Assembly (NCBI RefSeq): GCF_018390555.1
Contig: NZ_JAHBGB010000031.1
Span: 1 to 64,000, forward strand
Direction: 5' to 3'
Origin: Ancylobacter oerskovii
Lineage (GTDB): Bacteria > Pseudomonadota > Alphaproteobacteria > Rhizobiales > Xanthobacteraceae
Length of the DNA stretch: 64,000 nt
The position numbers and the translations under genes were made by a program. The notes beneath the pieces were generated by a model. The model was not told the origin of the DNA and did not search any database. It worked only from the letters and a program-made list of their open reading frames with translations. This document shows, piece after piece, positions 36,482 through 51,432 of the stretch. Each line of letters starts with the position of its first letter. Positions within the stretch are counted from its first letter, which is position 1.

Positions 36482-38002
36482 TCACGCGGCGGCGGTGCGG
36501 GCGGCGGCCCGGTTGCGCCGCCACTGCACGATGGAGGGAATGGCGAGCGAGAACGCCAGCAGCGCCCACAATATGTTGCCGACCGGCGAGGAGAAGAACA
36601 CCCACGGGTCGTTGCCGCTGATGCGCAGCGCCCGCATCACGTTCGCCTCCAGCATCGGCCCGAGGATCACGCCGATCAGCAGCGCCACCACGTTGAAGCC
36701 GGTCTTGCGGCAGACATAGCCGATGGCGCCGAACAGCAGCGTCAGCCACAGGTCGAACATGTAGGCGCGCGGCGCGAAGGCCCCGACCAGCGTGAAGGCG
36801 ATGATGATCGGCGCCAGCACCGGGGTGGGGATCATCACCAGCTTCGACACCCAGCGGGTGAGCGGCAGGGTGGTGAACAGCATCACCGCATAGGCGACCA
36901 GCATCGTGATGAACACGCCATAGCCGAGGCCGGGATTCTGGATGAACAGCCGCGGACCGAGTTGCACGCCGTGATAGGTCATCACGATCAGCATCACCGC
37001 CGCCGTGGTGCCGCCGGGCACGCCGATGACCAGGAGCGGGATGAGGTCGCCGGAGGCGCAGCCGTTATTGGCCGATTCCGGTGCGATCACGCCCTCGGGC
37101 ACCCCGGTGCCGTATTTTTCCGGCGTCTTGGAATAGAGCCGCGACTGCTGGTAGGCGACGAACGCCGCGATGGAGGCGCCGGCGCCCGGCACGATGCCGA
37201 TGATCAGCCCGATGATGCCGGTCCAGATCATGTGCCAGGTGCGCTGGAACGACATGACCACGCCGTCCCAGGTCTCCTTCCAGCCCGACTGCTTCATCAT
37301 CTGCATGCCGGTCTCGCTGAGCACGGAGCTCTGCTCCATCATGATCAGCGCCTCGGAGATAGCGAAGACGCCGATCAGCACCGCGATCAGCGGCACGCCG
37401 TCATAGAGCTCGATGAAGCCGAAGGTGCCGCGCGGCGTCGAATAGATGTGGTCGGCACCGATGGCGCCGATCAGCAGGCCGAGAAAGCCGGCGATCAGCC
37501 CCTTCAGCATGTTGTCAGAGGCGACCGAGGCGATCAGCGTGATGCCGAACAAAAGGATCACCACCATCTCGACGCTGTGCATGTAGAAGGCGAGGCGGGC
37601 AATATAGGGCAGCAGGAAGATCGACATCAGCGCGGTGACCATGCCGCCCACCGTCGAGGCGACGAAGGACAGCACCAGCGCCTGCTGGCCGAGCCCCTTC
37701 TTCGCCATCGGATAGCCGTCGAGGCAGGTCGCCGCCGAGCCGCCATTGCCGGGAATGTTGAGCAGGATCGAGGTGATGCCGCCGCCCATATGCGAGGCGA
37801 CGAACAGCGACACCATGAAGATCATCGCCACGTCGACATCCACCGCCAGCGTGAAGGGCAGCAGCATGATGATGGTGTTGGCCGAGCCGAAGCCCGGCAT
37901 GGCGCCGATGATGATGCCGATGGTTGTGGCGATGACGATCAGCCACAAATAGCTGAAATTCAGCAGGAACTGGTCGGAGAGCAGGCTCAGGCTGAGATTC
38001 AT
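36482..38002 (-). CDS. tctA: Tripartite tricarboxylate transporter, large permease TctA
   Basis: A 506-residue membrane protein with about eleven or twelve segments and the TctA signature region (GAMPGFGSANTIIMLLPFTL, GGITSILLNIPGNGGSAATC, GIVPGAGASIAAFVAY). With TctB and the periplasmic TctC it imports citrate, other carboxylates or aromatic acids using a cation gradient. Twenty bases follow tctB; the LVIVD gene follows directly. Confidence 0.93.
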   Translation of the reverse strand: MNLSLSLLSDQFLLNFSYLWLIVIATTIGIIIGAMPGFGSANTIIMLLPFTLAVDVDVAMIFMVSLFVASHMGGGITSILLNIPGNGGSAATCLDGYPMAKKGLGQQALVLSFVASTVGGMVTALMSIFLLPYIARLAFYMHSVEMVVILLFGITLIASVASDNMLKGLIAGFLGLLIGAIGADHIYSTPRGTFGFIELYDGVPLIAVLIGVFAISEALIMMEQSSVLSETGMQMMKQSGWKETWDGVVMSFQRTWHMIWTGIIGLIIGIVPGAGASIAAFVAYQQSRLYSKTPEKYGTGVPEGVIAPESANNGCASGDLIPLLVIGVPGGTTAAVMLIVMTYHGVQLGPRLFIQNPGLGYGVFITMLVAYAVMLFTTLPLTRWVSKLVMIPTPVLAPIIIAFTLVGAFAPRAYMFDLWLTLLFGAIGYVCRKTGFNVVALLIGVILGPMLEANVMRALRISGNDPWVFFSSPVGNILWALLAFSLAIPSIVQWRRNRAAARTAAA

Positions 38003-38021
38003 GACGGGCCCCCGTGGCGGC

Positions 38022-38525
38022 TCACAGGCCGGTCAGCGCCGAGACGAGGCGCTCGAAGGGCCCGGTCGGGAAGGCGGTGCGCAGGATGAGGATGAACAGG
38101 ACATAGCCGCCGAGCGCCAGCGCGCCGGCGGTGATCGCCGCATGCTTCACGCTCATGCGCTGCAGCCACAGGAAGGCGAAGAACAGGAACAGGAAGGTGG
38201 AGAGGGTGAAGCCCGCCCAGGGGATGACCGCCACCGAGGCCACGGTGAGGCCGAACAGCGCCCCGCGTATGATGGCGAGCTGTCGGGTCTCCCACAGGCT
38301 GCGCCACTCCACGTAATGGGTGCCGCGCAGCAGCCCGACGGCGGTGCGCAGGGCGAAGATGCCGATCAGGAGGAACAGCACCACGGCGCAGAACACGCCG
38401 GACACCTTGGCCTCCCAGTCGAGATCCTTGATGGAGTAGAGGTAGTAGGTGGCGAAGGCGGCGCCGAGAGCCGGGATGATCCAGTCGGCACCGGTCGCGA
38501 CCTTGCCGTTACGCTCGTCGTTCAT
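38022..38525 (-). CDS. tctB: Tripartite tricarboxylate transporter, small permease TctB
   Basis: A 167-residue protein with four predicted membrane segments (WIIPALGAAFATYYLYSI, VFCAVVLFLLIGIFAL, WAGFTLSTFLFLFFAFLWL, AGALALGGYVLFILIL), the usual TctB topology. AGGA seven bases before the ATG at 38525 sets the start. It lies between tctC and tctA. Confidence 0.9.
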   Translation of the reverse strand: MNDERNGKVATGADWIIPALGAAFATYYLYSIKDLDWEAKVSGVFCAVVLFLLIGIFALRTAVGLLRGTHYVEWRSLWETRQLAIIRGALFGLTVASVAVIPWAGFTLSTFLFLFFAFLWLQRMSVKHAAITAGALALGGYVLFILILRTAFPTGPFERLVSALTGL

Positions 38526-38644
38526 GGCAATGTCCTGCGCAGGAGGCGGATGACACACATGCCGCCCGGACCCGCCGGGCAGGATGCGGCCCTCGCACGC
38601 GGCCGCAGGCGCCGCCTCGCGGCACCGGGGAATGCCGTACCGGC

Positions 38645-39661
38645 TCAGCCCTTGGAGGCGGTCAGCAGCGAGCGGAAGCGCTCGGCGAGTTCGACGAACT
38701 CCTTCGCCGATTCCTGGCAGGCAGCGGCGTCGCCATACTGGATGAACTCCCAGGGCGTGCCGGCCTTTTCGGCCACCGTCTTGTAGTCGGGATCGGCGAA
38801 GACCTGCTTGAAGGTATCAGAGAGCTTCTTCACCCGGTCGGGATAGGCTTCCACGGCCTTGGCGTGGATGGCGATGGCGCGCTGGCCGGACATTTGCGGG
38901 ATCTTGGTCCCCAGCGCCTGGTTGATCGGCGGCGCATTATTGGTCAGTTCCGGCGCGCGATTGGTCTCGTTGAACACGGCAAGGAAGCGCGCCTGGTCGC
39001 CGAGGCCGAGCGACGACGACAGGAAGGTGGCGCAGCCATCCACCTCGCCGGTGATCGCCGCCGAGCGGGCCGGGCCGCCGCCGCCATAGGGGATCATCCG
39101 CACCTTCATGCCGGTCGCCTCGGCAAGCGCCAGCGCGCCGATGGTGGACGGATGCGGCAGGCGGCTGGTGGAAAGGGTGATCTCGCGCTTCTTGCCCTCC
39201 TCGACCATGTCGCCGATGGTCTTGAAGGGGCTGTTGCCCGGCACCCAGATGACACTGTCGTCGACATCCATGCTGCCGATATAGACGAAATCTTCCGGGT
39301 ATTTGTATTTGACCTTCTGGGTCGCATACATGATCATTTCCGGCCCGATATTGCCGAAAAGAAGATTATAGGCGTCCGGCTCGCGTTTCGCGACGAACAC
39401 CTCGTAGCCGACCTGCCCGGACGCGCCGGGGAAGTAGGAATACTCGAAATTGGCGCCGAGATATTTCGACCAGATGCGATTGAAGGCGCGCGCCGCCTGA
39501 TCGACGCCTCCCCCCTCGCCGGTCGGGATCAGCACCTGCATGGTCTTGCTGGGGAATTCGCCGGCGGCCTGCGCCTTCGGCGCGAGCAGCGACGGCACGG
39601 CGGCGCCGAGCATACCGGCTCCCGCGAGCAGGACGTGGCGGCGATCGAGCATGATGGACAT
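38645..39661 (-). CDS. tctC: Tripartite tricarboxylate transporter substrate-binding protein TctC
   Basis: A 338-residue periplasmic binding protein of the Bug/TctC family. The N-terminus has twin arginines followed by a hydrophobic run (LDRRHVLLAGAGMLGAAVPS), so Tat export is possible. The fold is recognisable from PSKTMQVLIPTGEGGGVDQA and YEVFVAKREPDAYNLLFGN. GGGAGG six bases before the ATG at 39661 decides the start. The ligand, probably a carboxylate, is unknown. First gene of the leftward tctC-tctB-tctA-LVIVD-small protein operon. Confidence 0.9.
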   Translation of the reverse strand: MSIMLDRRHVLLAGAGMLGAAVPSLLAPKAQAAGEFPSKTMQVLIPTGEGGGVDQAARAFNRIWSKYLGANFEYSYFPGASGQVGYEVFVAKREPDAYNLLFGNIGPEMIMYATQKVKYKYPEDFVYIGSMDVDDSVIWVPGNSPFKTIGDMVEEGKKREITLSTSRLPHPSTIGALALAEATGMKVRMIPYGGGGPARSAAITGEVDGCATFLSSSLGLGDQARFLAVFNETNRAPELTNNAPPINQALGTKIPQMSGQRAIAIHAKAVEAYPDRVKKLSDTFKQVFADPDYKTVAEKAGTPWEFIQYGDAAACQESAKEFVELAERFRSLLTASKG

Positions 39662-39749
39662 TGGCTTCCTCCCGAGAGGCGTTGGCGCGCCATGAAGTGC
39701 CGGGCCGATTTGCAGCCCGTCGGCCGGACGAATCCACACCGATTTTTAT

Positions 39750-39917: not shown

Positions 39918-40148
39918 CAACAACCTACCGCCGAAGATCCGCAGGATCGGCAGGCTGAGCCGACGTCTCCGCCGCCGCAGCCGACCGACGCTCACCTATT
40001 GGGCGACGCCTGCCTGAAAATTGGAAGGTGCCCGTCCAACAATCGGTGCGTCCAGAGACAAGTCTGCCGAACCCCGCCTGCGTAAGACTTTCCTCCTCGG
40101 TCCCCGTCACCGTGCCCACCGGCACGCGGCAGCAGAGGAGAAGGCACA

Positions 40149-41081
40149 GTGGCACTCAAACTCGACACGTATTCCGGCGGGCGCCGCTCGTCCGCCGCCG
40201 CGCATATTCGATCCGCGCTGCTCGGCGCCCTCGGCCTCGCCGTCGCCGCCGGAGGCATGACGGCCGGCCTGCCGCAGAAGGCCGAGGCCGCCGCGCCGGA
40301 AGCCTGCGCCGCGTTGCAGGCGAAATATCCCGCGCTCAAGGGCAAGACGCTCGTCAACGCCATCAACCCGCATACCCCGGGCTACGAGACCATCGATCCG
40401 AAGGACCCGACCAATTACATCGGCTTCGACATCGACCTCGGCGAGGCCATCGGCGAGTGTCTCGGCTTCAAGCTGACCTACAAGCCCGTCACCTTCGCCT
40501 CGCTGCTGACGACGCTCCAGGCCGGCCAGGCCGACATCGTCATCTCCGACATCTACGCCACCAAGGACCGTGCCAAGGCAGCCGATTTCATCACCTATCT
40601 CAAGGTGTTCGACGGCGTGCTGGTCGCGAAGGGCAATCCGAAGGGCATCAGCGGCATCAATTCCTCGCTCTGCGGGACGGTGGCCGCCGAGAATACCGGC
40701 TATGTCGAGGTGCCGCTGATCCAGGCGCTTGAGGCCGAGTGCAAGGCGGCCGGCAAGCCGGCGCCGGAAATCCAGCTCTACGACAACAATGCGAACTGCA
40801 TCCAGGCGATCCTCGCCGGCCGCGCCGACACCTACATCAACGACGTCAACACCGTCGACGGCGCGGTGAAGGCCTACCCGGACAAGCTGGAAAAGGCGAC
40901 GGCAGTCACCCTGCCCTATTCGGTCGGCATCGCCGTGCCGCGCAACAATCTCGCATTCCGCGACGCGGTGATGGCGGCGCTGGTCGAGATTCAGAAGAGC
41001 GGCCTGCAGGCCGAGCTGATGAAGAAATGGAACCTGCCGGCCGAGCAGCTCGAGACGCCCAAGCTCGTGCTGGCCGACTGA
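40149..41081 (+). CDS. ABC transporter substrate-binding protein (amino-acid type)
   Basis: A 310-residue SBP_bac_3-type binding protein with a long twin-arginine-containing leader (RSALLGALGLAVAAGG, cleavage near AEAAA). The binding domain has YIGFDIDLGEAIGECLGFKL, FASLLTTLQAGQADIVISD and IQAILAGRADTYINDVNTV. Several cysteines in the mature part are unusual for the family. The start is GTG at 40149 with AGGAG eight bases before it. It feeds the fused permease-ATPase encoded next. The ligand may be an amide or amino-acid derivative, judging from the two amidases downstream. Confidence 0.9.
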   Translation: MALKLDTYSGGRRSSAAAHIRSALLGALGLAVAAGGMTAGLPQKAEAAAPEACAALQAKYPALKGKTLVNAINPHTPGYETIDPKDPTNYIGFDIDLGEAIGECLGFKLTYKPVTFASLLTTLQAGQADIVISDIYATKDRAKAADFITYLKVFDGVLVAKGNPKGISGINSSLCGTVAAENTGYVEVPLIQALEAECKAAGKPAPEIQLYDNNANCIQAILAGRADTYINDVNTVDGAVKAYPDKLEKATAVTLPYSVGIAVPRNNLAFRDAVMAALVEIQKSGLQAELMKKWNLPAEQLETPKLVLAD

Positions 41082-41151: not shown

Positions 41152-42762
41152 ATGGATCTCTTTCTCCACTATCTCAGCATGCCCTACCTCCTCGACGGGG
41201 TCGGCTACACGCTGCTGATCACGGTGCTCGGCCTTGCGGGCGGGCTGGTCATGGGCGTCGTGCTCGCCGCCATGCAGCTCAGCCGCTTCCGAGCGCTGTC
41301 GGTGGTCGCGCGCGGCTATTCGATCATCTTCCGCGGCACGCCGCTGATCCTGCAGATGGTGTTTTGCTACAATGCCCTGCCGTTGATCGGCATCAAGCTT
41401 TCCGCCATCGCCGCCGCCGGCCTGGCGCTGGCGCTCAACGAAGCTCCCTTCATCGCCGAGATCCTCCGCTCCAACGTGCTCGGCGTCGAGCGCGGCCAGG
41501 TCAGCGCCGGCCAGGCGCTGGGCATGACGCCGGCCGCCATCATGCGCCGGGTGATCGCGCCGCAGGCGATCCGTTCCATGGTGCCGGCGCTCGGCAACGA
41601 GGCGGTGAGCGCGCTGAAGAACTCCTCGCTCGCCTCGGTCGTCGCGGTGCAGGAGCTGACGCTGCGCTCGACGCAGCTCGCCTCGGCGACCTTCGACTTC
41701 TTTTCCGTCTTCTTCGCTTCCGGCCTCATCTATCTGGTGCTCACCGGCGCCATCGCGGTCATCCAGATCGTCGTCGAAACGCTGCTCGACCTCGACCGGC
41801 CGCCGCCGCGGGAGCAGTTCCGGCGCGCCTTGCGGGTGCTGCGGCCCGGTCGTCCCGCGTCGGCGCCGGATGCGGCAGACAAGACCGCCGACGGGCCCCT
41901 CGAAGAGATCTCCGCCGATCCGCTGCCGCCGGCCTCCCCGAAATCCGCCCTTGCACGACCGGACCGGGACGCCCGCGCCCGCCGCCTCGCCGGCAACAAT
42001 GTCGCCGTCGAGGTGAAGGAGCTGCGCAAGAGCTATGGCCGCCAGACCGTGCTGGACGGCATCGAGCTGGACGTCCGCGCCGGCGAGGTCGTGGCGCTCC
42101 TCGGGCCCAGCGGGTCCGGCAAGAGCACGCTGCTGCGCTGTATCAACCGGCTGGAAGGCTGGGAGGACGGCACGATCCGCGTCGGCGGCCGCTTCCTCGG
42201 CAATGACGAGGGCGGCCGTGCGCTCTCGCCGCGCGCCACGGCGCAGATGCGCGCCAGCGTCGGCGTCGGCATGGTGTTCCAGCAATTCAACCTCTTCGGA
42301 CACCTGACCGCCAGGGAGAACATCGCCGGCCCGCTGCGCTGGGTGCAGGGGCTGTCGCGCCTCGACGCCGACCGCCGCGCGCAGGAATTGCTGGAGCGCG
42401 TCGGCCTCGCCCATCGCGCCGATGCACTGCCGCGCCATCTCTCCGGCGGCCAGCAGCAGCGCGTCGCCATCGCCCGCGCGGTGGCGCCGGGACCGAGCGT
42501 GCTGCTGCTCGACGAGCCGACCTCGGCGCTCGATCCCGAGCTCGTGGGCGAGGTGCTGGAGGTCATCCGCCGCCTCGCGATCGAGGACGGCCTCGCCATG
42601 GTCATCTCCACCCACCAGCTCCGCTTCGCCGGCGAGGTCGCCGACCGCATCGTCTTCCTCGCCGGCGGATCGATCGTCGAGGAAGGCCCGGCCGAACGGA
42701 TGCTCACCCAGCCGCGACATCCGCTCACCGCCCGCTTCCTCAGCACGATGACCGCCGAATAG
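41152..42762 (+). CDS. ABC transporter permease-ATPase fusion
   Basis: A 536-residue protein holding two importer parts in one chain. Residues 1-215 form a HisM-type permease with about five membrane segments and an EAA-type loop around 115-140 (GQALGMTPAAIMRRVIAPQA). Residues 216-285 are a proline- and alanine-rich linker. Residues 286-536 are a complete ATPase: Walker A GPSGSGKST (318-326), VFQQFNLFGHLT, LSGGQQQRVAIARAV, LLLDEPTSALDPE and ISTHQLRFAGE. Homodimerisation would give a full transporter with the preceding binding protein. Such fusions exist but are uncommon. Confidence 0.92.
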   Translation: MDLFLHYLSMPYLLDGVGYTLLITVLGLAGGLVMGVVLAAMQLSRFRALSVVARGYSIIFRGTPLILQMVFCYNALPLIGIKLSAIAAAGLALALNEAPFIAEILRSNVLGVERGQVSAGQALGMTPAAIMRRVIAPQAIRSMVPALGNEAVSALKNSSLASVVAVQELTLRSTQLASATFDFFSVFFASGLIYLVLTGAIAVIQIVVETLLDLDRPPPREQFRRALRVLRPGRPASAPDAADKTADGPLEEISADPLPPASPKSALARPDRDARARRLAGNNVAVEVKELRKSYGRQTVLDGIELDVRAGEVVALLGPSGSGKSTLLRCINRLEGWEDGTIRVGGRFLGNDEGGRALSPRATAQMRASVGVGMVFQQFNLFGHLTARENIAGPLRWVQGLSRLDADRRAQELLERVGLAHRADALPRHLSGGQQQRVAIARAVAPGPSVLLLDEPTSALDPELVGEVLEVIRRLAIEDGLAMVISTHQLRFAGEVADRIVFLAGGSIVEEGPAERMLTQPRHPLTARFLSTMTAE

Positions 42763-42807: not shown

Positions 42808-44046
42808 ATGACCAAGCATCGCCTGCCCGCCACGCCCGACACCGTCCATTGGGGCTATTTCAGCAAGACCCTCGCGCCGGTGCTGACGCTCCGGTCGGGG
42901 GAGCGGGCCGTCATCGAGACCATCACCCACCATGCCAATGACGATTACGAACGCATGATCGCCGGCGACCGGGCGGCGGAGGACATCTTCCACTGGACGG
43001 CGCAAGGCAAGACCCTGCGCCGGCGGGGGGCCGGCGCCACCAATGGCCCGCTCACCTATGGTTCCGGCGAGGGCCTCGGCGTGCATCTGCTCACCGGCCC
43101 CATCGCCATAGAGGGGGCGGAACCAGGCGACATCATCGAGGTGCGCATCATCGATGCCTGGCCGCGCCCGAGCGCGAACCCGGCCTATCAGGGCCGCTTC
43201 TTCGGCTCCAATCCTTCCGCCAATTGGGGCTTCCAGTACGGGGACCTGATCGAGGAGCCGAAGCCACGCGAGGTCGTCACCATCTACGAACTCGACATGG
43301 GAGAGGCTTCGGTCAGCGCCCTCTATTCCTATCTCTGGACGCCGCAGACCGACCCGGACGGCATCGTGCACCCGACGATCGACTATCCCGGCGTGCGGGT
43401 CGACCACGGCACCATCGTGAAGAAGGAAGGCATCCTGTCCGGCATCAAGGTGCCGGCGCGCCTGCATTTCGGCACGATGGGCCTCGCGCCCGCGGAGGCC
43501 GATTTCGTCTCCACCATCCCGCCCAACTACACGGGCGGCAACATGGACGACTGGCGCATCGCCAAGGGCGCGCGCATGTATTACCCCGTCGCCGTGCCCG
43601 GCGGCCTGTTTTCCTGCGGCGACGCGCATGCCTCGCAGGGCGACAGCGAGCTTTCCGGCACCGCGATCGAGATCTCGCTCACCGGCGAGTTCGAGTTCAT
43701 CCTGCACAAGAAGGCGGATCTCGAGGGCACCCTTCTCGAGGGGCTGGACCATCCTCTGCTTGAAAACGACGACGTCTGGTCGGTCTACGGTTTCAGCGTG
43801 ACCAATTATCTCGCCGAGCTCGGCCCCGACCACCAGCACGAGATCCTCAAGCGATCCAGCCTCGACAAGGCGATGCGCGACGCCTTCCGCAAGCTGCGCC
43901 GCTTCCTCATGACGGTGCACAAGCTTTCCGAGGACGAAGCCATCTCGCTGATGTCGGTCGCCGCCGATTTCGCCGTCACGCAGGTGGTGGACGCCAATTG
44001 GGGAGTCACCGGCTCGATCCGCAAGAGCATCTTCGCCGGGCGGTGA
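42808..44046 (+). CDS. Acetamidase/formamidase family amidohydrolase
   Basis: A 412-residue FmdA/AmdA-family enzyme. It starts with VHWGYFSKTLAPVL, has the THHANDDYERMIAGD segment, and carries the strongly conserved GDAHASQGDSELSGTAIEIS region that contributes the metal and active-site residues. The family hydrolyses short amides such as formamide or acetamide to acid and ammonia, though many members have other amides as substrates. AAGAGG lies six bases before the ATG. A second copy is fused to an AraC regulator in the next gene. Confidence 0.9.
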   Translation: MTKHRLPATPDTVHWGYFSKTLAPVLTLRSGERAVIETITHHANDDYERMIAGDRAAEDIFHWTAQGKTLRRRGAGATNGPLTYGSGEGLGVHLLTGPIAIEGAEPGDIIEVRIIDAWPRPSANPAYQGRFFGSNPSANWGFQYGDLIEEPKPREVVTIYELDMGEASVSALYSYLWTPQTDPDGIVHPTIDYPGVRVDHGTIVKKEGILSGIKVPARLHFGTMGLAPAEADFVSTIPPNYTGGNMDDWRIAKGARMYYPVAVPGGLFSCGDAHASQGDSELSGTAIEISLTGEFEFILHKKADLEGTLLEGLDHPLLENDDVWSVYGFSVTNYLAELGPDHQHEILKRSSLDKAMRDAFRKLRRFLMTVHKLSEDEAISLMSVAADFAVTQVVDANWGVTGSIRKSIFAGR

Positions 44047-44122: not shown

Positions 44123-46459
44123 ATGACTGCCCAGCCGTTCACCAGCGAATCCTATGCCGGGGATGCGCGCGAGCGTGCCTGGCAGGACCTGCTCGCCGGC
44201 TTCGGGCTGCAATCGCTCGCCGCCCGTACCGGCTCGCCCGCCCATGCGACGGCATTGTCGCGCCTGTCCTCGCTCGGGGTTCGGCTCGGCACGCTCTCGG
44301 CGGATGCCCAGATCCTGCGACCGCTGCCGTCGCGGAGCGGCCTGCCGCTCCTGCTGCTGCCGGTGGAGAACAGCGCCGTTCTCTCGACTGGCGGCGAAAC
44401 GCAGATCGTCGCGGCCGGTCAACTCATCCTCGCCCCGCGCGGGGCGGACTGGCAGGTGCAGTTCCAGCGCGGCTTGCGCGCCGTGCTGCTCTCGGTACCG
44501 TCGGATGCGTTCCGCGGACGCAAGGCGGCACCGCCCGCCGGCTCCCAGCCGCGCGTCTTCGCCGCCGACGGACTGCCGGACATTCTCGCCCGTACCATCC
44601 AGGCCGCCGCCACGACGCTCGGCCGGCTCGCCGAACCCGAATGGGAAGCGGTGGCGCAGAGTGCCGCCGAGCTGCTTCTCGTCCTGTCGGCGGAGCTGGC
44701 GGCGACGAGGGTCGATCCGTCGTCGAGCCGCGCGGCCCTGCTCCAGCGCATCTACGCGACCATCGAGCGGAGCATCGGCCGCGAGGACGTCTCGATCGCC
44801 GAGGTCGCGCAGACCGAGGGCATATCCGAGCGCTATCTCCAGAAGCTGTTCGAAGGCACGGGGGAAAGCTTCAGCCACTATGTGCGCGAGCGGCGCCTGC
44901 AGCGCGCCTGGCACGATCTCGCCAATCCCGCCGAAGCGGCGGTGCCGATCTCCGAGATCGCCTATCGCTACGGCTTCGCGGATTCCGCCCATTTCAGCCG
45001 CCTGTTCCGCGAGCGCTTCGGTCTGCCTCCGCGCGAGCTACGCCGCCGCGAGGCCGATCGGCAGGATCAGGGCGTGCTCGCGAGCGGCCAGCGCGGCTGG
45101 CCGCAGGAGGCGCTGGGACAATTGCGCGCGCGCCAGACGAAATCCGAGCCCGACACGCGCCGGGGCGTCGTGCTCGACAGCGGCGAGCCCGCCGGCACGC
45201 CGGACACACCGGCACGGCATTATCTGCCGGTACATGCCCAGCATGTGCACTGGGGTTATTTCAGCCGTTCGCTCAAGCCGCTGATCGAGATCGGCTCCGG
45301 CGACATCGTCACCGTCGAGACGCTGACACAGCATGCCTCCGACGACCCCGAGCGCATGATCGCGGGAGATCCGGGAGCGGAGAGCGTGTTCCACTGGACG
45401 CGCACCGCCAAGGCCGTGGACCGGCGGGGCGCCGGGCCGCTCGACGCCTCGGTCTTCGGGCGCGGGGCCGGAGAAGGCTTCGGCGTGCACATCTGCACCG
45501 GCCCCATCGCCGTGCGCGGCGCCCAGCCCGGCGACGTGCTGGAAGTGCATATCCTCGACATCGAGCCGCGCCCCTCACGCCACCCGGATCATGCCGGGCG
45601 CGTCTTCGGCAGCAGCGTCGCGGCCTGGTGGGGCTTCCACTATTCGGAATTCCTCAGCGAGCCGCATCCGCGCGAGACGGTGACGATCTACGAGATCGTC
45701 ACCGATACCGACGAACCTCATGCGCGGGCCGTGCATGCCTATCGGTGGGAACCGCAACTAGATCCCTTCGGGGTCCGGCATGCGCTCTACGATTACCCCG
45801 GCGTGCCGGTCCGCCCGGAGACGTTGACGCTGCAAACGCGCGTGCTCGACGGGATACGCATCCCGCTGCGGCCGCATTTCGGCGTCATCGCCGTGGCTCC
45901 GCGCGAGGCCGATCTCGTCGATTCCGTGCCCCCGGCCTATTTCGGCGGCAATCTCGACAATTGGCGGCTCGGCAAGGGCGCGACGGTCTATCTGCCGGTA
46001 TCCGTTCCCGGCGCGCTGCTGTCGGTCGGCGACCCGCATGCGGCGCAGGGCGATGGCGAATTGTCGGGCACCGCCATCGAATGCTCGATGACGGGCACCT
46101 TCCGCGTGGTGCTGCACAAGAAGGCCGAGGTCGCCGGCACGCTGCTCGCCGACCTGACCTATCCGCTGATCGAGACGCCGGACGACTGGGTGCTGACCGG
46201 CTTCAGCCACCCCAACTACCTCGCCGAATTCGGTGCCGATGGCCAGAGCGAGGTCTATGCCAAGTCCTCGCTCGACCTTGCCATGCGCGACGCCTTCCGC
46301 AAGGTGCGGCGCTTCCTGATGACCACGAAGGGATTGAGCGAGGACGAAGCGATCGCCCTGATGTCGGCCGCCGTCGATTTCGGCATCACCCAGGTGGTGG
46401 ACGGCAATTGGGGCGTCCATGCCATCCTGAGCAAGCGGTTGTTCCCGGACGGGAAATGA
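44123..46459 (+). CDS. AraC-family regulator fused to acetamidase/formamidase
   Basis: A 778-residue two-part protein. Residues 1-200 resemble an AraC-binding-like sensor. Residues 205-310 are a full AraC/XylS DNA-binding domain (VSIAEVAQTEGISERYLQKL; ISEIAYRYGFADSAHFSRLF; FGLPPREL). After a flexible linker (310-365) comes a complete FmdA/AmdA enzyme from VHWGYFSRSLKPL (375 onward), with GDPHAAQGDGELSGTAIECS retained as in the free-standing paralogue encoded just upstream. No start codon with a ribosome site is visible in the linker. The likely reading is a regulator that carries a substrate-processing or sensing amidase domain. Whether the amidase is active is unknown. Confidence 0.9.
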   Translation: MTAQPFTSESYAGDARERAWQDLLAGFGLQSLAARTGSPAHATALSRLSSLGVRLGTLSADAQILRPLPSRSGLPLLLLPVENSAVLSTGGETQIVAAGQLILAPRGADWQVQFQRGLRAVLLSVPSDAFRGRKAAPPAGSQPRVFAADGLPDILARTIQAAATTLGRLAEPEWEAVAQSAAELLLVLSAELAATRVDPSSSRAALLQRIYATIERSIGREDVSIAEVAQTEGISERYLQKLFEGTGESFSHYVRERRLQRAWHDLANPAEAAVPISEIAYRYGFADSAHFSRLFRERFGLPPRELRRREADRQDQGVLASGQRGWPQEALGQLRARQTKSEPDTRRGVVLDSGEPAGTPDTPARHYLPVHAQHVHWGYFSRSLKPLIEIGSGDIVTVETLTQHASDDPERMIAGDPGAESVFHWTRTAKAVDRRGAGPLDASVFGRGAGEGFGVHICTGPIAVRGAQPGDVLEVHILDIEPRPSRHPDHAGRVFGSSVAAWWGFHYSEFLSEPHPRETVTIYEIVTDTDEPHARAVHAYRWEPQLDPFGVRHALYDYPGVPVRPETLTLQTRVLDGIRIPLRPHFGVIAVAPREADLVDSVPPAYFGGNLDNWRLGKGATVYLPVSVPGALLSVGDPHAAQGDGELSGTAIECSMTGTFRVVLHKKAEVAGTLLADLTYPLIETPDDWVLTGFSHPNYLAEFGADGQSEVYAKSSLDLAMRDAFRKVRRFLMTTKGLSEDEAIALMSAAVDFGITQVVDGNWGVHAILSKRLFPDGK

Positions 46460-46591: not shown

Positions 46592-46852
46592 ATGAAGGTT
46601 CTGATTGGGGATTCGCATTGCTACCCGGGATGCCCGGTAACGATGCGCGACGAGGGCAAAGGAACGCTTCTCGAGTTCAACGATGGCACGGTTGCCCTGG
46701 GCGACTTCCACGCGGACGGCGAGGAGGGCGTATTGGCGGTGCCCGCCTACGAGACCGCCCGCGGCCGGAAGATCGATGCCAAGACATGGCGGCTGGGTCG
46801 CGTAGGCGACGACGGATCCTGGCGGATCAAGGCGCGGATTTTCCCCGGGTGA
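46592..46852 (+). CDS. Small hypothetical protein
   Basis: An 86-residue protein starting MKVLIGDSHCYPGCPVTMRD, with a LEFNDGTVALGDFHADGE core and a basic, tryptophan-containing C-terminus (WRIKARIFPG). GGAG eight bases before the ATG at 46592 favours this start over an upstream in-frame one. It follows the AraC-amidase gene by 132 bases and overlaps the end of the convergent EamA gene by 26 bases. No family recognised. Confidence 0.6.
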   Translation: MKVLIGDSHCYPGCPVTMRDEGKGTLLEFNDGTVALGDFHADGEEGVLAVPAYETARGRKIDAKTWRLGRVGDDGSWRIKARIFPG

Positions 46853-47768
46853 CGGCCTCGCTCGCGGCGCGGGGCAGCGGGCGCCCGGCAGGTGCGCCCC
46901 CGCGTCCCGATGCCTGCGACCAGATGCCGGCAACGACGATCAGCAGCACGCCGAACAGGGTCGAGGCCCCCGGCCGCTCGCCCAGCACGAACTCGCCAAG
47001 TCCCAGGGTCCAGACGAGATAGGTGTATGAAAGCGGCGCCAGCCTCGCCACGGCGACGGCTTCGCCCTGATAGGCGCAGGCCACGAGCGCATGCGCGCCG
47101 GCCCAGCACAGGCCGAGCCCCGCCAGCCAGAGCAGTTCGCCCGCCGTCGGCGTTGCGAACACCGGCACCACGCCGGCGCTCGAGACGACAAGCCCCAGCC
47201 CCGCCGACCATGCGAGCGTCGTCAGCACGGTATCGCGCCGCAGCGCCGGCCGGGAACTGACGATGGCGGCCGCCCAACAGAGCGCCGAGCCCAAGGGCAG
47301 CAGTGCGAAGAGCGAGAGCCCTTCGTCGCCCGGCTTCACCACGACGAGGACGCCGGCCAGGCCGAGCAGCACGGCGCACCACTGCGCGGGGCGGACGGCT
47401 TCGCGCAGCACAAGGGCGGCCAGCAGCGTCACCAGGAGCGGCGAGACGAAATACAGCGCCGTCGCATCCGCCAGCGGCAGGCGGTGCAGCGCCGCGATCT
47501 GGAACAGCGTGGCCCCTGCCATTCCCAGCCCGCGCAGAAGCTGGGACCGGCGGGCCTGCGCTTTCCCTGGTCGCAGGCCGAACAGGACGCAAATGGAGGC
47601 CAGGATCACGGAGGCCACCGCGTATCGCGCCCACGCGATCTGGATGGCGGGGATCCTGCCGCCGAGTTGCTTGGCGGCGACGTCCGACAGGGCGAAGAGA
47701 AGCATCGCGACAAGCAGCAGCGCCGTGCGACCCTCCGCACCGGCAAATCGGCCGGACAGGCGGGGCAT
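46827..47768 (-). CDS. EamA/DMT-family transporter
   Basis: A 313-residue protein with two EamA domains and about ten membrane segments (LLVAMLLFALSDVAAKQLGG at the start, TLFGVLLIVVAGIWSQA at the end). It probably exports a small metabolite. Three bases separate it from the VOC gene, making it the last gene of the leftward operon that begins at 51968. Confidence 0.88.
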   Translation of the reverse strand: MPRLSGRFAGAEGRTALLLVAMLLFALSDVAAKQLGGRIPAIQIAWARYAVASVILASICVLFGLRPGKAQARRSQLLRGLGMAGATLFQIAALHRLPLADATALYFVSPLLVTLLAALVLREAVRPAQWCAVLLGLAGVLVVVKPGDEGLSLFALLPLGSALCWAAAIVSSRPALRRDTVLTTLAWSAGLGLVVSSAGVVPVFATPTAGELLWLAGLGLCWAGAHALVACAYQGEAVAVARLAPLSYTYLVWTLGLGEFVLGERPGASTLFGVLLIVVAGIWSQASGRGGAPAGRPLPRAASEAVTRGKSAP

Positions 47769-47771
47769 GGG

Positions 47772-48209
47772 TCAGGCCGTCCGAATCTCGAGGACGGTTC
47801 CCGCCTCGCTCCGCGTGTCGAAGTAGCAGAAGCCGCCGCCGTCCACCCGCTTGCCGCGCGCGATGATGCCGAGACCGACGGCCCGCCCGGCCGCCACGCC
47901 GGCATCGATGTCCGGCACTTCGAAGCCGAGATGGTAGACGCCCTCGCCCTGTTCATCGAGAAAGCGCCGCTGCGGGCTGTCCAGCTCTCCGGGCGCGCAG
48001 AGCTGGAGCTGCATGTTGTCGAGATCGGCGCAGCGATACCTCATCGCGGCCGAGGCGGCCGGGTTCGGCACGTCGAGCTCCGCATAGGCGCCCTTCTTCG
48101 GGTAATCGTAGAACGGGCCGAAGCCGAGGCTCGCATAATAGGCTTCGGCGCGCTCGAGGTCGTGCACCACGATGCAGATGTGGTGGATCTTGCGGAAGAG
48201 GGCGGACAT
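47772..48209 (-). CDS. VOC-family (glyoxalase-fold) protein
   Basis: A 145-residue protein. It opens with KIHHICIVVHDLERAEAYYA, giving the first metal histidine, and has YHLGFEVPDIDAGVAA with a second histidine, matching glyoxalase/methylmalonyl-CoA epimerase-like VOC proteins of one and a half modules. The reaction is unknown: isomerisation, ring-opening or epimerisation are all possible in this fold. It lies in the ABC/GntR operon between GntR and EamA. Confidence 0.87.
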   Translation of the reverse strand: MSALFRKIHHICIVVHDLERAEAYYASLGFGPFYDYPKKGAYAELDVPNPAASAAMRYRCADLDNMQLQLCAPGELDSPQRRFLDEQGEGVYHLGFEVPDIDAGVAAGRAVGLGIIARGKRVDGGGFCYFDTRSEAGTVLEIRTA

Positions 48210-48245
48210 GGCGACCTGCAGTCTTGGAAAGGATGGACGCGACGC

Positions 48246-48884
48246 TCAGAGGTGGAGCGCCGGCTCGACGATGGCGCGTGTCATCTCGACATGCTGCCGC
48301 GCAACCCGCTCCGCGGTGTCCTCGTCGCCGGCCGCGAGCGCGGCGAGAATGGCACCATGCTGCTCGTTCGACTGGCGGATCTCCTGTTCGGCGAACAGCA
48401 CCGGCACGCGCAGCATCCAGTACTGGAACTGCGTCCGCTCGTGGAACTGGGCCAGCAGGGGATTGGCCGCGGCATCGACGATGCCCTGATGGAACAGGCC
48501 GTTCAGGCGATTGAGCTCGTGGCGCGTCAGGCGCTCGGCGGGCTGCATCTGCTCGATCAGCGCGGAAAGGCCGGCAAGCTCGGCTGGCGTGATGCGCCGT
48601 GCCGCCAGCCGCGCCGTCGCCCCTTCCACCGCGGCGCGGCTCTCGAAGATGGCGCCGACCTGCGAGCGCACGACCTGCTTGACGACCCAGCCCCGCTCCC
48701 GCGAGAGATAGCCCTCTCCCTGCATCAGCAGCAGCGCCTCGCGCACCGGCGTGCGCCCCGCCCCCAGCCGCTCGCAGAGTTCATCCTCCACGATCCGCTG
48801 TCCCGGCAGCAGCTCGCCCCCGAGGATCATGCTGCGGAGCCGGCTGCGCACGTCGGTCGACATGGCGTTCTCGGCCGGCTTCAT
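48246..48884 (-). CDS. GntR-family regulator with FCD domain
   Basis: A 212-residue FadR-subfamily regulator: a winged helix-turn-helix with LCERLGAGRTPVREALLLMQ and a helical ligand domain with GLFHQGIVDAA and EQHGAILAALAAGDED. Its ATG overlaps the ATPase stop (ATGA), so it is translated with the transporter it probably controls. An internal ATG at 48863 is an alternative start. It differs clearly from the GntR protein at 28788. Confidence 0.9.
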   Translation of the reverse strand: MKPAENAMSTDVRSRLRSMILGGELLPGQRIVEDELCERLGAGRTPVREALLLMQGEGYLSRERGWVVKQVVRSQVGAIFESRAAVEGATARLAARRITPAELAGLSALIEQMQPAERLTRHELNRLNGLFHQGIVDAAANPLLAQFHERTQFQYWMLRVPVLFAEQEIRQSNEQHGAILAALAAGDEDTAERVARQHVEMTRAIVEPALHL

Positions 48885-49705
48885 CGGCGGGCATCCTCTG
48901 ATACGGGCGTTGGCTCGCGGCCGCCATGCGCTTCGCTGAGAAGCCGGGCGAGAAACTGGCGGGCGCGGTCGCTGCGCGGGTTGGAGAAGAAGGCGCGCGG
49001 GGGCGCGTCCTCGACGATCGCGCCGTTCTCCATGAAGACCACCCGATCGGCGACATCCCGGGCGATCGCCATGTCGTGGGTCGCGATCATCATCGTCTGT
49101 CCTTCCTCGGCAAGCGCCCTGATCGTCGCGACGACCTCCTGGACGAGCTCGGGATCCAGCGCGGAGGTCGGCTCGTCGAGCAGGAGCACGCGCGGTTCCA
49201 TCGCCAGCGCGCGGGCGATGGCGACACGCTGCTGCTGCCCACCGGACAGTTCCGCCGGATAGGCATCCTTGCGCGGCGTGAGGCCGACCTTGGCCAGCAG
49301 CGCCTCGGCCCGGCTCCGGGCTTGCGCCCTGGGCAGGCCGAGCACGATCCGCGGTCCGCTCATCACGTTCTCCAGCGCCGTCATGTGGCGAAACAGGTTG
49401 AAGTGCTGGAACACCATGCCGATCTGCCGGCGCTGGAGAGCGACCTGCGCGTCCGTCAGCTCGATCAGGGCGTCCGCCGTCTCGCGATAGCCGATCAGCT
49501 CGCCATAGGCATAGATCCGGCCGGCGGAGATGGTCTCCAGGCAGTTGACGCAGCGCAGCAGGGTCGATTTGCCGGCTCCCGACTGCCCCAGCAAGGCGAC
49601 GACCTGTCCGCGGGGCACGTCGAGCGAAACGTTCTGGAACGCCGCGACGGCGCCCCAGTGCTTGCTGATACCGACCAGCGAGACGGCGGGAAGATCCTCG
49701 GTCAT
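48881..49705 (-). CDS. Amino-acid ABC transporter ATP-binding protein
   Basis: A 274-residue ATPase with Walker A LLGQSGAGKST, VFQHFNLFRHMT, LSGGQQQRVAIARAL, LLLDEPTSALDPE and MIATHDMAIARD. It energises the importer encoded by the next two genes upstream. ATG and stop overlap both neighbours by four bases. Confidence 0.93.
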   Translation of the reverse strand: MTEDLPAVSLVGISKHWGAVAAFQNVSLDVPRGQVVALLGQSGAGKSTLLRCVNCLETISAGRIYAYGELIGYRETADALIELTDAQVALQRRQIGMVFQHFNLFRHMTALENVMSGPRIVLGLPRAQARSRAEALLAKVGLTPRKDAYPAELSGGQQQRVAIARALAMEPRVLLLDEPTSALDPELVQEVVATIRALAEEGQTMMIATHDMAIARDVADRVVFMENGAIVEDAPPRAFFSNPRSDRARQFLARLLSEAHGGREPTPVSEDARR

Positions 49706-50564
49706 CGCGGCGGAAACCTTTTCTCGAGCCCGGTCTGGACCGCCGTCGCCAGCGCCGTCAGCGCCAGATACCAGATGGCCGCCACCGCGAGCAGCTCCAC
49801 CACGAGGAAATTGGAGGAGTAGATATCCGTCACCACCCGCAGCATCTCCGGGTAGCCGATGGTGGAGGCCAGCGAGGTGGATTTCAGCAGCATGATGTAC
49901 TGGTTGCCGCAGGCCGGCACGATGATCCGCCCCGCCTGCGGCGCGACGATGTGCGAGAAGACCTGCCGGTGCGTCATGCCGAGCGCGGTCGCCGCGGCCC
50001 TCTGCCCCTTGTCGATCGCCATGATGCCCGACCGCATGATCTCGCTCATATAGGCCCCTCGGCCAGCGAGAGGCCGGCGAGCGCCGCCAGGAAGGGCGTC
50101 ACCACCACGGTGGTCGGCGTCTCGAAGAGCGGTCCCGGCAGGAAGGGCAGCGAGAGCGTGATGGTCGGGAACATGGTAGGCACGGCGTTGAACCAGAAGA
50201 CCAGCTGGATCAGCATCGGGGTGCCGCGGAACAGGTACACATAGGTCGCCGAGAGGGCGACCAGGATCGGATTGCCGGAAAGCCGCATCAGGGCGGAGAA
50301 GAGCCCGATGACGCTGGAGATGGCCAGCGCCAGCGTGCCCAGCACGAGCGCATTGACGGCCCCCGCGACGATGGCCGGATGGAAGAGATAGATGCCGATG
50401 ATCTCGAGATCGAGGATCCGGGAACGGATGCCGCCCCAGATCACCGTCGCGACGAAGGCCACCGCGAGCCCGCCGAGGATCCAGCTGCCCCATTGGCGCC
50501 GCCGTATGATGGGCAGGGTGGTTGCGGCGCCGAGGTCTCGGCTTGCCGGCACGACAGTGGCCAT
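49702..50564 (-). pseudogene. Amino-acid ABC transporter permease, frameshifted
   Basis: The gene reads as a HisM-type permease from the ATG at 50564 through FLAALAGLSLAEG, then shifts frame at a run of four C (50055-50058; four G on the coding strand) and stops as GPI. In the next frame the protein continues exactly where the family requires, with AYMSEIMRSGIMAIDKGQ through NQYIMLLKSTSLASTIGYPE to the stop at 49702. One extra G would restore a 287-residue permease. This is either a sequencing error, a recent inactivating mutation, or a homopolymer that varies. Everything else in the operon looks intact. Confidence 0.85.
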
Positions 50565-50577
50565 GGGCGCTCCGCTA

Positions 50578-51432
50578 TCACTTGCTCGCCGGAAGATTGA
50601 TGGTGATCTTGTCGAGCAGACCGCCCTCCAGGCCCCATTTCGTCATTATCGCCTTGTAGGTGCCGTCGGTCACCATCTGCTCGAGGGTGGCCCTCACCGC
50701 GTCCCTCAGCTCGGCGTTCTTCTTGCTGAAGCCCCAGGAGGTGATGTAGGGCGTCAGAATGTAGTTGCCGCCGACGATGCCGTAGCGGCCGGGGAACTGG
50801 CTGCCGAGATAGGCCAGCGCCGGCAGGTCCCCGAGATAGGCGTCCACCCGCCGCAGGTCGAGCTGCATGCGTGCGTCCGGCGCGGAGGGTAGCTGCTCGG
50901 CCCGGATCGGCGGCTTGCCGGCGGCGACGCAGGCCGAGGACGCCGCCTCGACCTTCTCCATGATCACCCGCGAGCCGAGCAGCGTCGCGACCGACTTGCC
51001 GCAGAAATCGGCGATCGTTCGGTACTGCGTGGCCGTCGCCGCGAGGGCGAGCATGGCGCCGCCGGAGCGCATGTAATTGACGAAATCGAGCGTCTTCTCC
51101 CGCTCCTCGGTGTCGGAGATGCCGCCGGACGCGATGTCGAAGCGCCCGGCCTCGATGCCCGGAATGAGGGCCGCATATTCCGACTGGACATATTCGAGCC
51201 GGAGCTCCAGCCGCTTGGCGATCTCGCGCAGGAGATCGGCCGACGCTCCCGTCACCGCCTGCGAGCCGGATTCCCGGAACTCGACCGGAGGGAAGGTCTG
51301 CTGGGACCCCACCGTCAGGACGCCCTTTGCCTTGATGCCGGCCGGGACCGGCGTCTCCGCGGCCTTCGCCCCGACACCCAGGGCGAAGACCACGGAGAGA
51401 ACACATGCCGAGATGCCTGCAACCGCCTTCAT
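50578..51432 (-). CDS. Amino-acid-type ABC transporter substrate-binding protein
   Basis: A 284-residue binding protein with a clear signal peptide (GISACVLSVVFALGVGAKA) and SBP_bac_3 features (IKAKGVLTVGSQQTFPPVEF, LIPGIEAGRFDIASGGISDT, SWGFSKKNAELRDAVRATLE). GGAGG lies just before the ATG. It supplies the ligand to the frameshifted permease and ATPase. Ligand unknown; an amino acid or gamma-glutamyl compound is suggested only by the neighbouring cyclotransferase-like gene. Confidence 0.92.
   Translation of the reverse strand: MKAVAGISACVLSVVFALGVGAKAAETPVPAGIKAKGVLTVGSQQTFPPVEFRESGSQAVTGASADLLREIAKRLELRLEYVQSEYAALIPGIEAGRFDIASGGISDTEEREKTLDFVNYMRSGGAMLALAATATQYRTIADFCGKSVATLLGSRVIMEKVEAASSACVAAGKPPIRAEQLPSAPDARMQLDLRRVDAYLGDLPALAYLGSQFPGRYGIVGGNYILTPYITSWGFSKKNAELRDAVRATLEQMVTDGTYKAIMTKWGLEGGLLDKITINLPASK

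Follow-up and report, generated by a model that had tools for sequence, protein, structure and literature searches.

An AraC-family regulator fused to an acetamidase/formamidase domain: a conserved protein family represented in Ancylobacter oerskovii

Organization of the locus

The window, a 64,000-nucleotide stretch of the Ancylobacter oerskovii genome (contig NZ_JAHBGB010000031.1, positions 1 to 64,000), carries a solute-binding protein gene, a permease-ATPase gene, a free-standing amidase gene and then a gene in which an AraC-family regulator and an acetamidase/formamidase share one open frame. The features discussed here are the following.

40037..40061, + strand: conserved element CAA-N6-GTGCG-N6-GACAA, proposed as the binding site of the fusion protein
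40149..41081, + strand: ABC transporter solute-binding protein (SBP_bac_3, by Pfam)
41152..42762, + strand: ABC transporter permease and ATPase in one frame, of the polar amino acid type by best profile matches
42808..44046, + strand: free-standing amidase paralogue, 55% identical to the fused domain
44123..46459, + strand: fused AraC-family regulator and acetamidase/formamidase gene (778 amino acids, Pfam domains)
44276..44677, + strand: AraC_binding_2 domain, residues 52–185 (Pfam, 34.6 bits, cut-off 27)
44807..45049, + strand: HTH_18, the AraC double helix-turn-helix, residues 229–309 (Pfam, 78.8 bits, cut-off 33.6)
45059..45217, + strand: linker, residues ~313–365 (pLDDT below 50 across residues 316–361)
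45092..45103, + strand: RGxP motif in the linker (R324, G325, P327)
45218..46450, + strand: FmdA/AmdA amidase domain, residues 366–776 (3b9t alignment, Foldseek, conserved polar residues)

The TctA and TctC genes at 36482–39739 of the window are divergent from this operon, and the element at 40037 therefore lies between two transcription units. Downstream of the fusion, the minus strand of 46827–51432 encodes an EamA transporter and a glyoxalase-fold protein, together with a GntR/FCD regulator and a second SBP_bac_3 protein; open frames resembling ABC ATPases and permeases, judged by eye, lie between those genes.

Domain architecture of the fused protein

The first-pass annotation described an uninterrupted fusion of AraC regulator and amidase in a 778-residue frame, and this description stands: the frame is single and open, and all three Pfam domains score above their curated cut-offs. 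A stop or frame break in the linker, named there as a refutation, is absent from 44123–46459. The FmdA_AmdA match (107.4 bits, cut-off 27) has its best stretch at residues 601–760, and the C-terminal half, residues 363–776, aligns with the solved chain 3b9t at 604 bits. The protein contains the motif GDPHAAQGDGELSGTAIE. Alignments place the start of the amidase near residue 363–366, somewhat before the earlier estimate of about 375. By profile and fold, the C-terminal half belongs to the FmdA/AmdA family (PF03069). The N-terminal half shows the features expected of AraC/XylS membership, a predicted double helix-turn-helix (HTH_18) with an attached sensor/dimerisation domain. Because an AraC_binding_2 domain is still present, the amidase does not take the place of the AraC sensor.

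An AlphaFold model of the fused protein, built from 31 sequences, is of moderate quality (mean pLDDT 75.3, pTM 0.53) and uninformative on the coupling of the halves. Helices across residues 203–316 of the model are consistent with two helix-turn-helix motifs. In Foldseek comparisons, the enzyme half finds 3b9t with a target TM of 0.92, and the N-terminal half finds CuxR (5nla), Rns and ToxT with target TM values of just 0.35–0.53.

Distribution and origin of the family

A scan of one genome per species returned 16 loci. In fifteen of these, the match runs from residue 1 to residue 774 or beyond at 47–91% identity, with 73–91% in Ancylobacter-type genomes and 47–49% in Parvibaculum and Hyphomicrobiales MAGs; in the sixteenth, from Thiomonas, the match is limited to the amidase part. 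Both halves fall within one match (query start at or before 151, end beyond 700) in 10/297 genomes of the order, 8/398 of the phylum and 34/198 of the family, sets that overlap and that each include the window's own genome. Among plasmid records with a match, 14 of 1759 cover at least 80% of the query, and the best plasmid matches include Rhizobium, Neorhizobium, Caballeronia, Paraburkholderia and Variovorax. Matches across order, phylum and family genomes and plasmid records rule out a lone oddity, and the protein is instead a member of a conserved family, now found, by the organism names of matching records, in Alpha- and Betaproteobacteria. In the annotated records seen, such proteins are named either acetamidase/formamidase or AraC regulator, which hides the other half.

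Sixty-four distinct frames carrying both halves were extracted, the window's own included; one truncated locus, duplicates of identical sequence and the broken frame of genome G762 were left out. The N-terminal domain lies in the same frame in 63/64, the exception being locus L130. When 32 diverse fused proteins were examined with Pfam, HTH_18 and FmdA_AmdA were each found in 32/32 and AraC_binding_2 in 31/32. The proposed search for other proteins with the HTH_18 and FmdA_AmdA architecture was therefore productive, and the possibility, also raised as a refutation, that homologues always keep the halves as separate genes is contradicted by the 64 fused frames.

A single TAA lies within the match in 3/34 family genomes (G077, G830 and G762); the open frames of G077 and G830 still extend to residue 775, and that of G762 stops near residue 645. 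Two relatives have broken fusion frames, namely G762 (locus L118) and a Rhizobium johnstonii plasmid (L130, annotated as two pieces), with intact copies elsewhere. In genome G610 (L144:6641–8699), a short amidase gene and a separate AraC gene adjoin in reverse order; the product of the latter has the domain layout of the fusion's N-terminal half and is 33% identical to the AraC half.

In an amidase-domain tree of 75 rows, one branch (SH-aLRT 98) separates all 34 fused rows from the rest, with no free amidase among them. The rows were thinned to less than 88% identity, the search was quick, the remote branches are long, and L003, L118, L083 and L130 were omitted. Because the fused rows form one side of the branch with the remote amidases opposite, the sequences suggest one old fusion event.

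Gene neighborhoods

The gene order of the window recurs in relatives, and a RidA gene then follows in twelve fetched loci; the window has no RidA gene after the fusion. In Caballeronia, the fusion is oriented divergently from the solute-binding, permease-ATPase and free amidase genes; elsewhere its partner is a lone amidase in divergent orientation or a short amidase on its upstream side. The first-pass annotation had asked whether free-standing paralogues sit beside such fusions. One lies directly upstream in the window (42808–44046), and a free amidase is present in the fetched stretch at 42/55 fusion loci (L120 repeats L012) and absent from it at 13/55. Ancylobacter-type genomes have a second fusion copy with no amidase nearby; at the one such locus scanned with Pfam (L092:1156–6085), this copy is divergent from TRAP transporter and gamma-glutamyltranspeptidase genes.

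In a Hyphomicrobiales MAG (L022:387–4491), genes for a LigB dioxygenase, a luciferase-like monooxygenase, an isochorismatase and an amidohydrolase lie upstream of a short amidase and the fusion. We take these to resemble a ring-opening pathway of the Rut kind, with which the presence of RidA genes close to other fusions would agree. Near a Caballeronia fusion locus (L122:1–1007) are genes for nitrile hydratase subunits, a possible source of the amide.

A conserved DNA element

Alignment of 13 Ancylobacter-type loci revealed a conserved block upstream of the solute-binding gene. The first-pass annotation had suggested testing for DNA binding upstream of 40149, and the element at 40037–40061, which ends 87 bases before that start and is inferred to lie next to the −35 region, provides a candidate site. 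In the 5.48 Mb of the window's own genome, the core CAA-N6-GTGCG-N6-G(A/T)CAA has exactly one exact match, at 40037–40061, and six further matches with one mismatch, against one for a reversed control pattern.

In several loci outside that set, a 59-base profile made from the Ancylobacter-type loci alone finds its best match upstream of the solute-binding gene. It is too specific for distant types, in which its best scores are mostly negative, and a 39-base profile was used instead, the sites for which had been chosen in the region preceding that gene. This second profile was refined on loci first scored with it, and those first scores were not counted as evidence. In the leave-one-out analysis, each locus and all sites at least 80% identical to its own were removed, and the whole locus was scanned on both strands. 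The top match then lies upstream of the solute-binding gene in 17/17 loci with that gene, two of them from Burkholderiales.

Over all types, a locus was scored as a pass when its top match, on either strand, fell at most 320 bases upstream of a solute-binding, fusion or amidase gene. By this measure, 47/55 fusion loci pass, compared with 3/18 control loci, which have no linked fusion. In the 11 fusion loci without a nearby amidase (L091–L099, L106 and L109), the top match is upstream of the fusion in every case, and 4/5 lone-amidase loci pass, L107 failing. Among the loci with a short or distant amidase, L022, L123 and L127 pass and L021, L023, L101, L102 and L104 fail; L103, which is cut at a contig end, and L124 complete the eight failures. 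Two of the 47 passes, L022 (6.8) and L123 (9.3), have scores of a size also seen among the controls. The passing controls L141, L142 and L146 score at most 7.3, and L146 comes from a genome, G754, that holds a fusion elsewhere. Control L147 scored 22.7 and was not counted as a pass; its site precedes the gene of an MFS transporter, which diverges from a free amidase gene, and its genome, G760, has a fusion on another contig. At two Parvibaculum loci (L021:2359 and L023:2103, minus strand), a common element-like site lies away from the fusion and may mark a further target gene.

The exact core has at least one match in 12/12 genomes of the genus, the window's own included. Outside the genus, it occurs at the fusion locus in 5/22 fusion-holding genomes of the family, the rest needing the degenerate profile, and it is also present in 19/164 family genomes that lack a fusion. 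Because of these last two counts, the wider signal is the degenerate profile, and the exact core is, at the level of sequence, largely a feature of the genus.

Sequence constraint and conserved residues of the amidase

The regions of the fused protein differ in their conservation. For 29 far members of the family, each less than 55% identical over the whole protein, identity to the window protein averages 66% for the amidase, 47% for the helix-turn-helix, 20% for the sensor (residues 1–195) and 15% for the linker. Compared with seven close relatives, dN/dS is 0.06–0.18 for the amidase, 0.05–0.28 for the helix-turn-helix, 0.21–0.53 for the sensor and 0.21–0.88 for the linker. The linker varies in length from 46 to 91 amino acids across the family, and R324, G325 and P327 of its RGxP motif are identical in 64/64 fused frames (32/32 in A2).

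Eleven polar residues of the amidase domain (D407, H456, D471, N610, D612, D637, H639, D644, E646, E653 and E684) are likewise identical in all 64 fused frames. They were chosen from alignments, and the list does not assign catalytic or metal roles. In 12 distant rows, nine of these positions are kept in all, H456 in a fraction of 0.83 and E684 in 0.92. Two other positions set the fused domain apart from most free enzymes: position 403 is Q in 62/64 fused frames and H in 37/41 free rows, and position 624 is L in 64/64 fused frames and Y in 36/41 free rows. The window protein has Q403 and L624 and thus lacks the residues of the close subfamily, H403 and Y624, although these are not family-wide features. 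The active-site comparison proposed in the first-pass annotation therefore gives a divided answer, in that the conserved polar residues would argue against loss of activity and Q403 and L624 would count the other way.

The differences at positions 403 and 624 bear on the reading that the amidase half is a former enzyme that binds an amide and has lost cleavage, in the manner of BzdR. In chimeras of the BzdR type, loss of activity accompanied the in vivo response, as described in a section of PMC3602430. As proof of a dead enzyme, Q403 and L624 are rejected: L is found at 624 in alignments with the solved chains 2ii1 and 5ubu, and H403 is missing in 4/12 distant rows, among them L001, its genome's best FmdA match. 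H403 is kept in the other 8/12, and the change to Q403 is therefore not trivial. Pairwise identities are divided as well. Between the window and Rhizobium L121, the fused domain is the less alike (70%, against 87% for the free partner), but between the window and L115 it is the more alike (84% against 72%), and the fused domain is neither uniformly faster nor slower than its free partner. With all eleven family-wide polar positions intact in 64/64 fused frames, we regard loss of cleavage as rather unlikely. The mechanism of a relative, 2wkn, remained elusive in the account given in part of PMC5353710.

Proposed function

The fusion is probably a regulator in a single protein that binds an amide, possibly also hydrolysing it, and controls the operon for its uptake; with comparable confidence, gene order and the conserved element point to a dedicated regulator of the operon of solute-binding protein, permease-ATPase and free amidase, with the fusion gene next in line. 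Where the neighbors differ, as with the TRAP transporter or the lone amidase, the element is upstream of the fusion or the amidase. In the proposed mechanism, the AraC half would bind the candidate element and activate the operon. The amidase half would bind the imported amide or a related compound and, because the family's polar residues are kept, might also hydrolyse that ligand. Ligand occupancy or turnover would then determine the state in which the AraC half is held until the amide has been consumed. Since a free amidase is present at most fusion loci, sensing is a likelier reason than bulk hydrolysis for retaining the fused copy. This argument from redundancy is not general, since 13/55 loci have no free amidase in the fetched stretch. 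The AraC_binding_2 domain, which is still present, could be the true sensor.

This last point is taken further in a second alternative, in which AraC_binding_2 senses the inducer and an active amidase is joined to the regulator for co-production, with no influence on DNA binding. The presence of AraC_binding_2 in 31 of the 32 fused proteins and the retention of the eleven polar residues would both be expected of such a passenger. In genomes G077, G713 and G830, moreover, the fused protein is the sole match at E ≤ 1e-60 among the matches listed (at most five candidates scored per genome), and it may therefore supply the amidase activity in these genomes. At the 42 loci with a free amidase nearby, however, an additional amidase attached to a regulator would be redundant; the RGxP residues are identical in all 64 frames within an otherwise variable linker, which hints that the join is functional; and the fused rows of the tree include no free amidase. 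We therefore consider a mere passenger unlikely. That sequencing or annotation joined neighboring genes has next to no probability, for although frames are broken in G762 and the Rhizobium johnstonii plasmid and in G610 a short amidase gene adjoins an AraC gene without being fused to it, 64 distinct frames with helix-turn-helix and amidase, 63 also with the N-terminal domain, and low dN/dS in both halves rule out an assembly artefact or a missed linker stop and settle the question as a sequencing matter.

A more specific form of the preferred one-protein regulator can be put forward tentatively. The fusions may constitute a widespread and previously undescribed family of trigger enzymes, in which a still-active amidase behind a complete AraC protein would signal the presence of its substrate to the promoter of the operon for uptake and hydrolysis, and would terminate that signal by destroying the substrate.

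Comparison with known systems

Recruitment of enzyme domains into regulators is a known kind of event. The particular pairing of AraC with FmdA/AmdA, for which the first-pass annotation knew of no described case, was likewise not found in the literature searched, most subscription journals lying outside its scope. A section of PMC11573777 concerns an amidase-signature enzyme whose gene is preceded by a separate gene of the AraC family, and the passages of a formamide review examined (PMC10781810) do not mention AraC.

The closest solved relative of the C-terminal half is 3b9t, a predicted acetamidase/formamidase from Methylobacillus flagellatus, which differs from the fusion in that its chain has no AraC match and has H at position 403. 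By fold, CuxR (5nla), Rns and ToxT share the sensor and double helix-turn-helix layout of the fusion's N-terminal half; to our knowledge, they have no enzyme domain.

Trigger enzymes of the PutA type combine an enzyme and a DNA-binding transcription factor in one polypeptide and are tied to a catabolised nutrient. The predicted architecture of the fusion is similar, but the enzyme and the DNA-binding fold of PutA are unrelated to those of the fusion. Enzyme-like domains also form the sensor part of the AraC regulators GbdR and FtrA, with DJ-1/PfpI-like domains, and of MocR, in which GntR is joined to an aminotransferase. Like these, the fusion is a helix-turn-helix regulator bearing an enzyme-derived domain; unlike them, it has a hydrolase domain of ~410 residues after a normal AraC layout.

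BzdR, according to part of PMC3602430, is an HTH-XRE regulator with an effector domain descended from shikimate kinase that has lost its activity, and regulators are thought there to arise from enzymes that gained DNA-binding domains. It resembles the fusion as a one-component regulator with an effector domain from a metabolic enzyme, and differs in belonging to another DNA-binding family and in having the inactive enzyme domain as its sole effector domain (PMC3602430, same part). In the fusion, AraC_binding_2 is also present and the polar residues of the amidase family are kept. We know of few cases, useful as they are, in which the conserved residues of the enzyme are intact, free paralogues adjoin as controls and a candidate site is available. 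Since the regulator, its substrate-splitting domain and the free paralogue, along with the transporter and the element, are all defined here across many genomes, the need for catalysis in sensing is directly testable.
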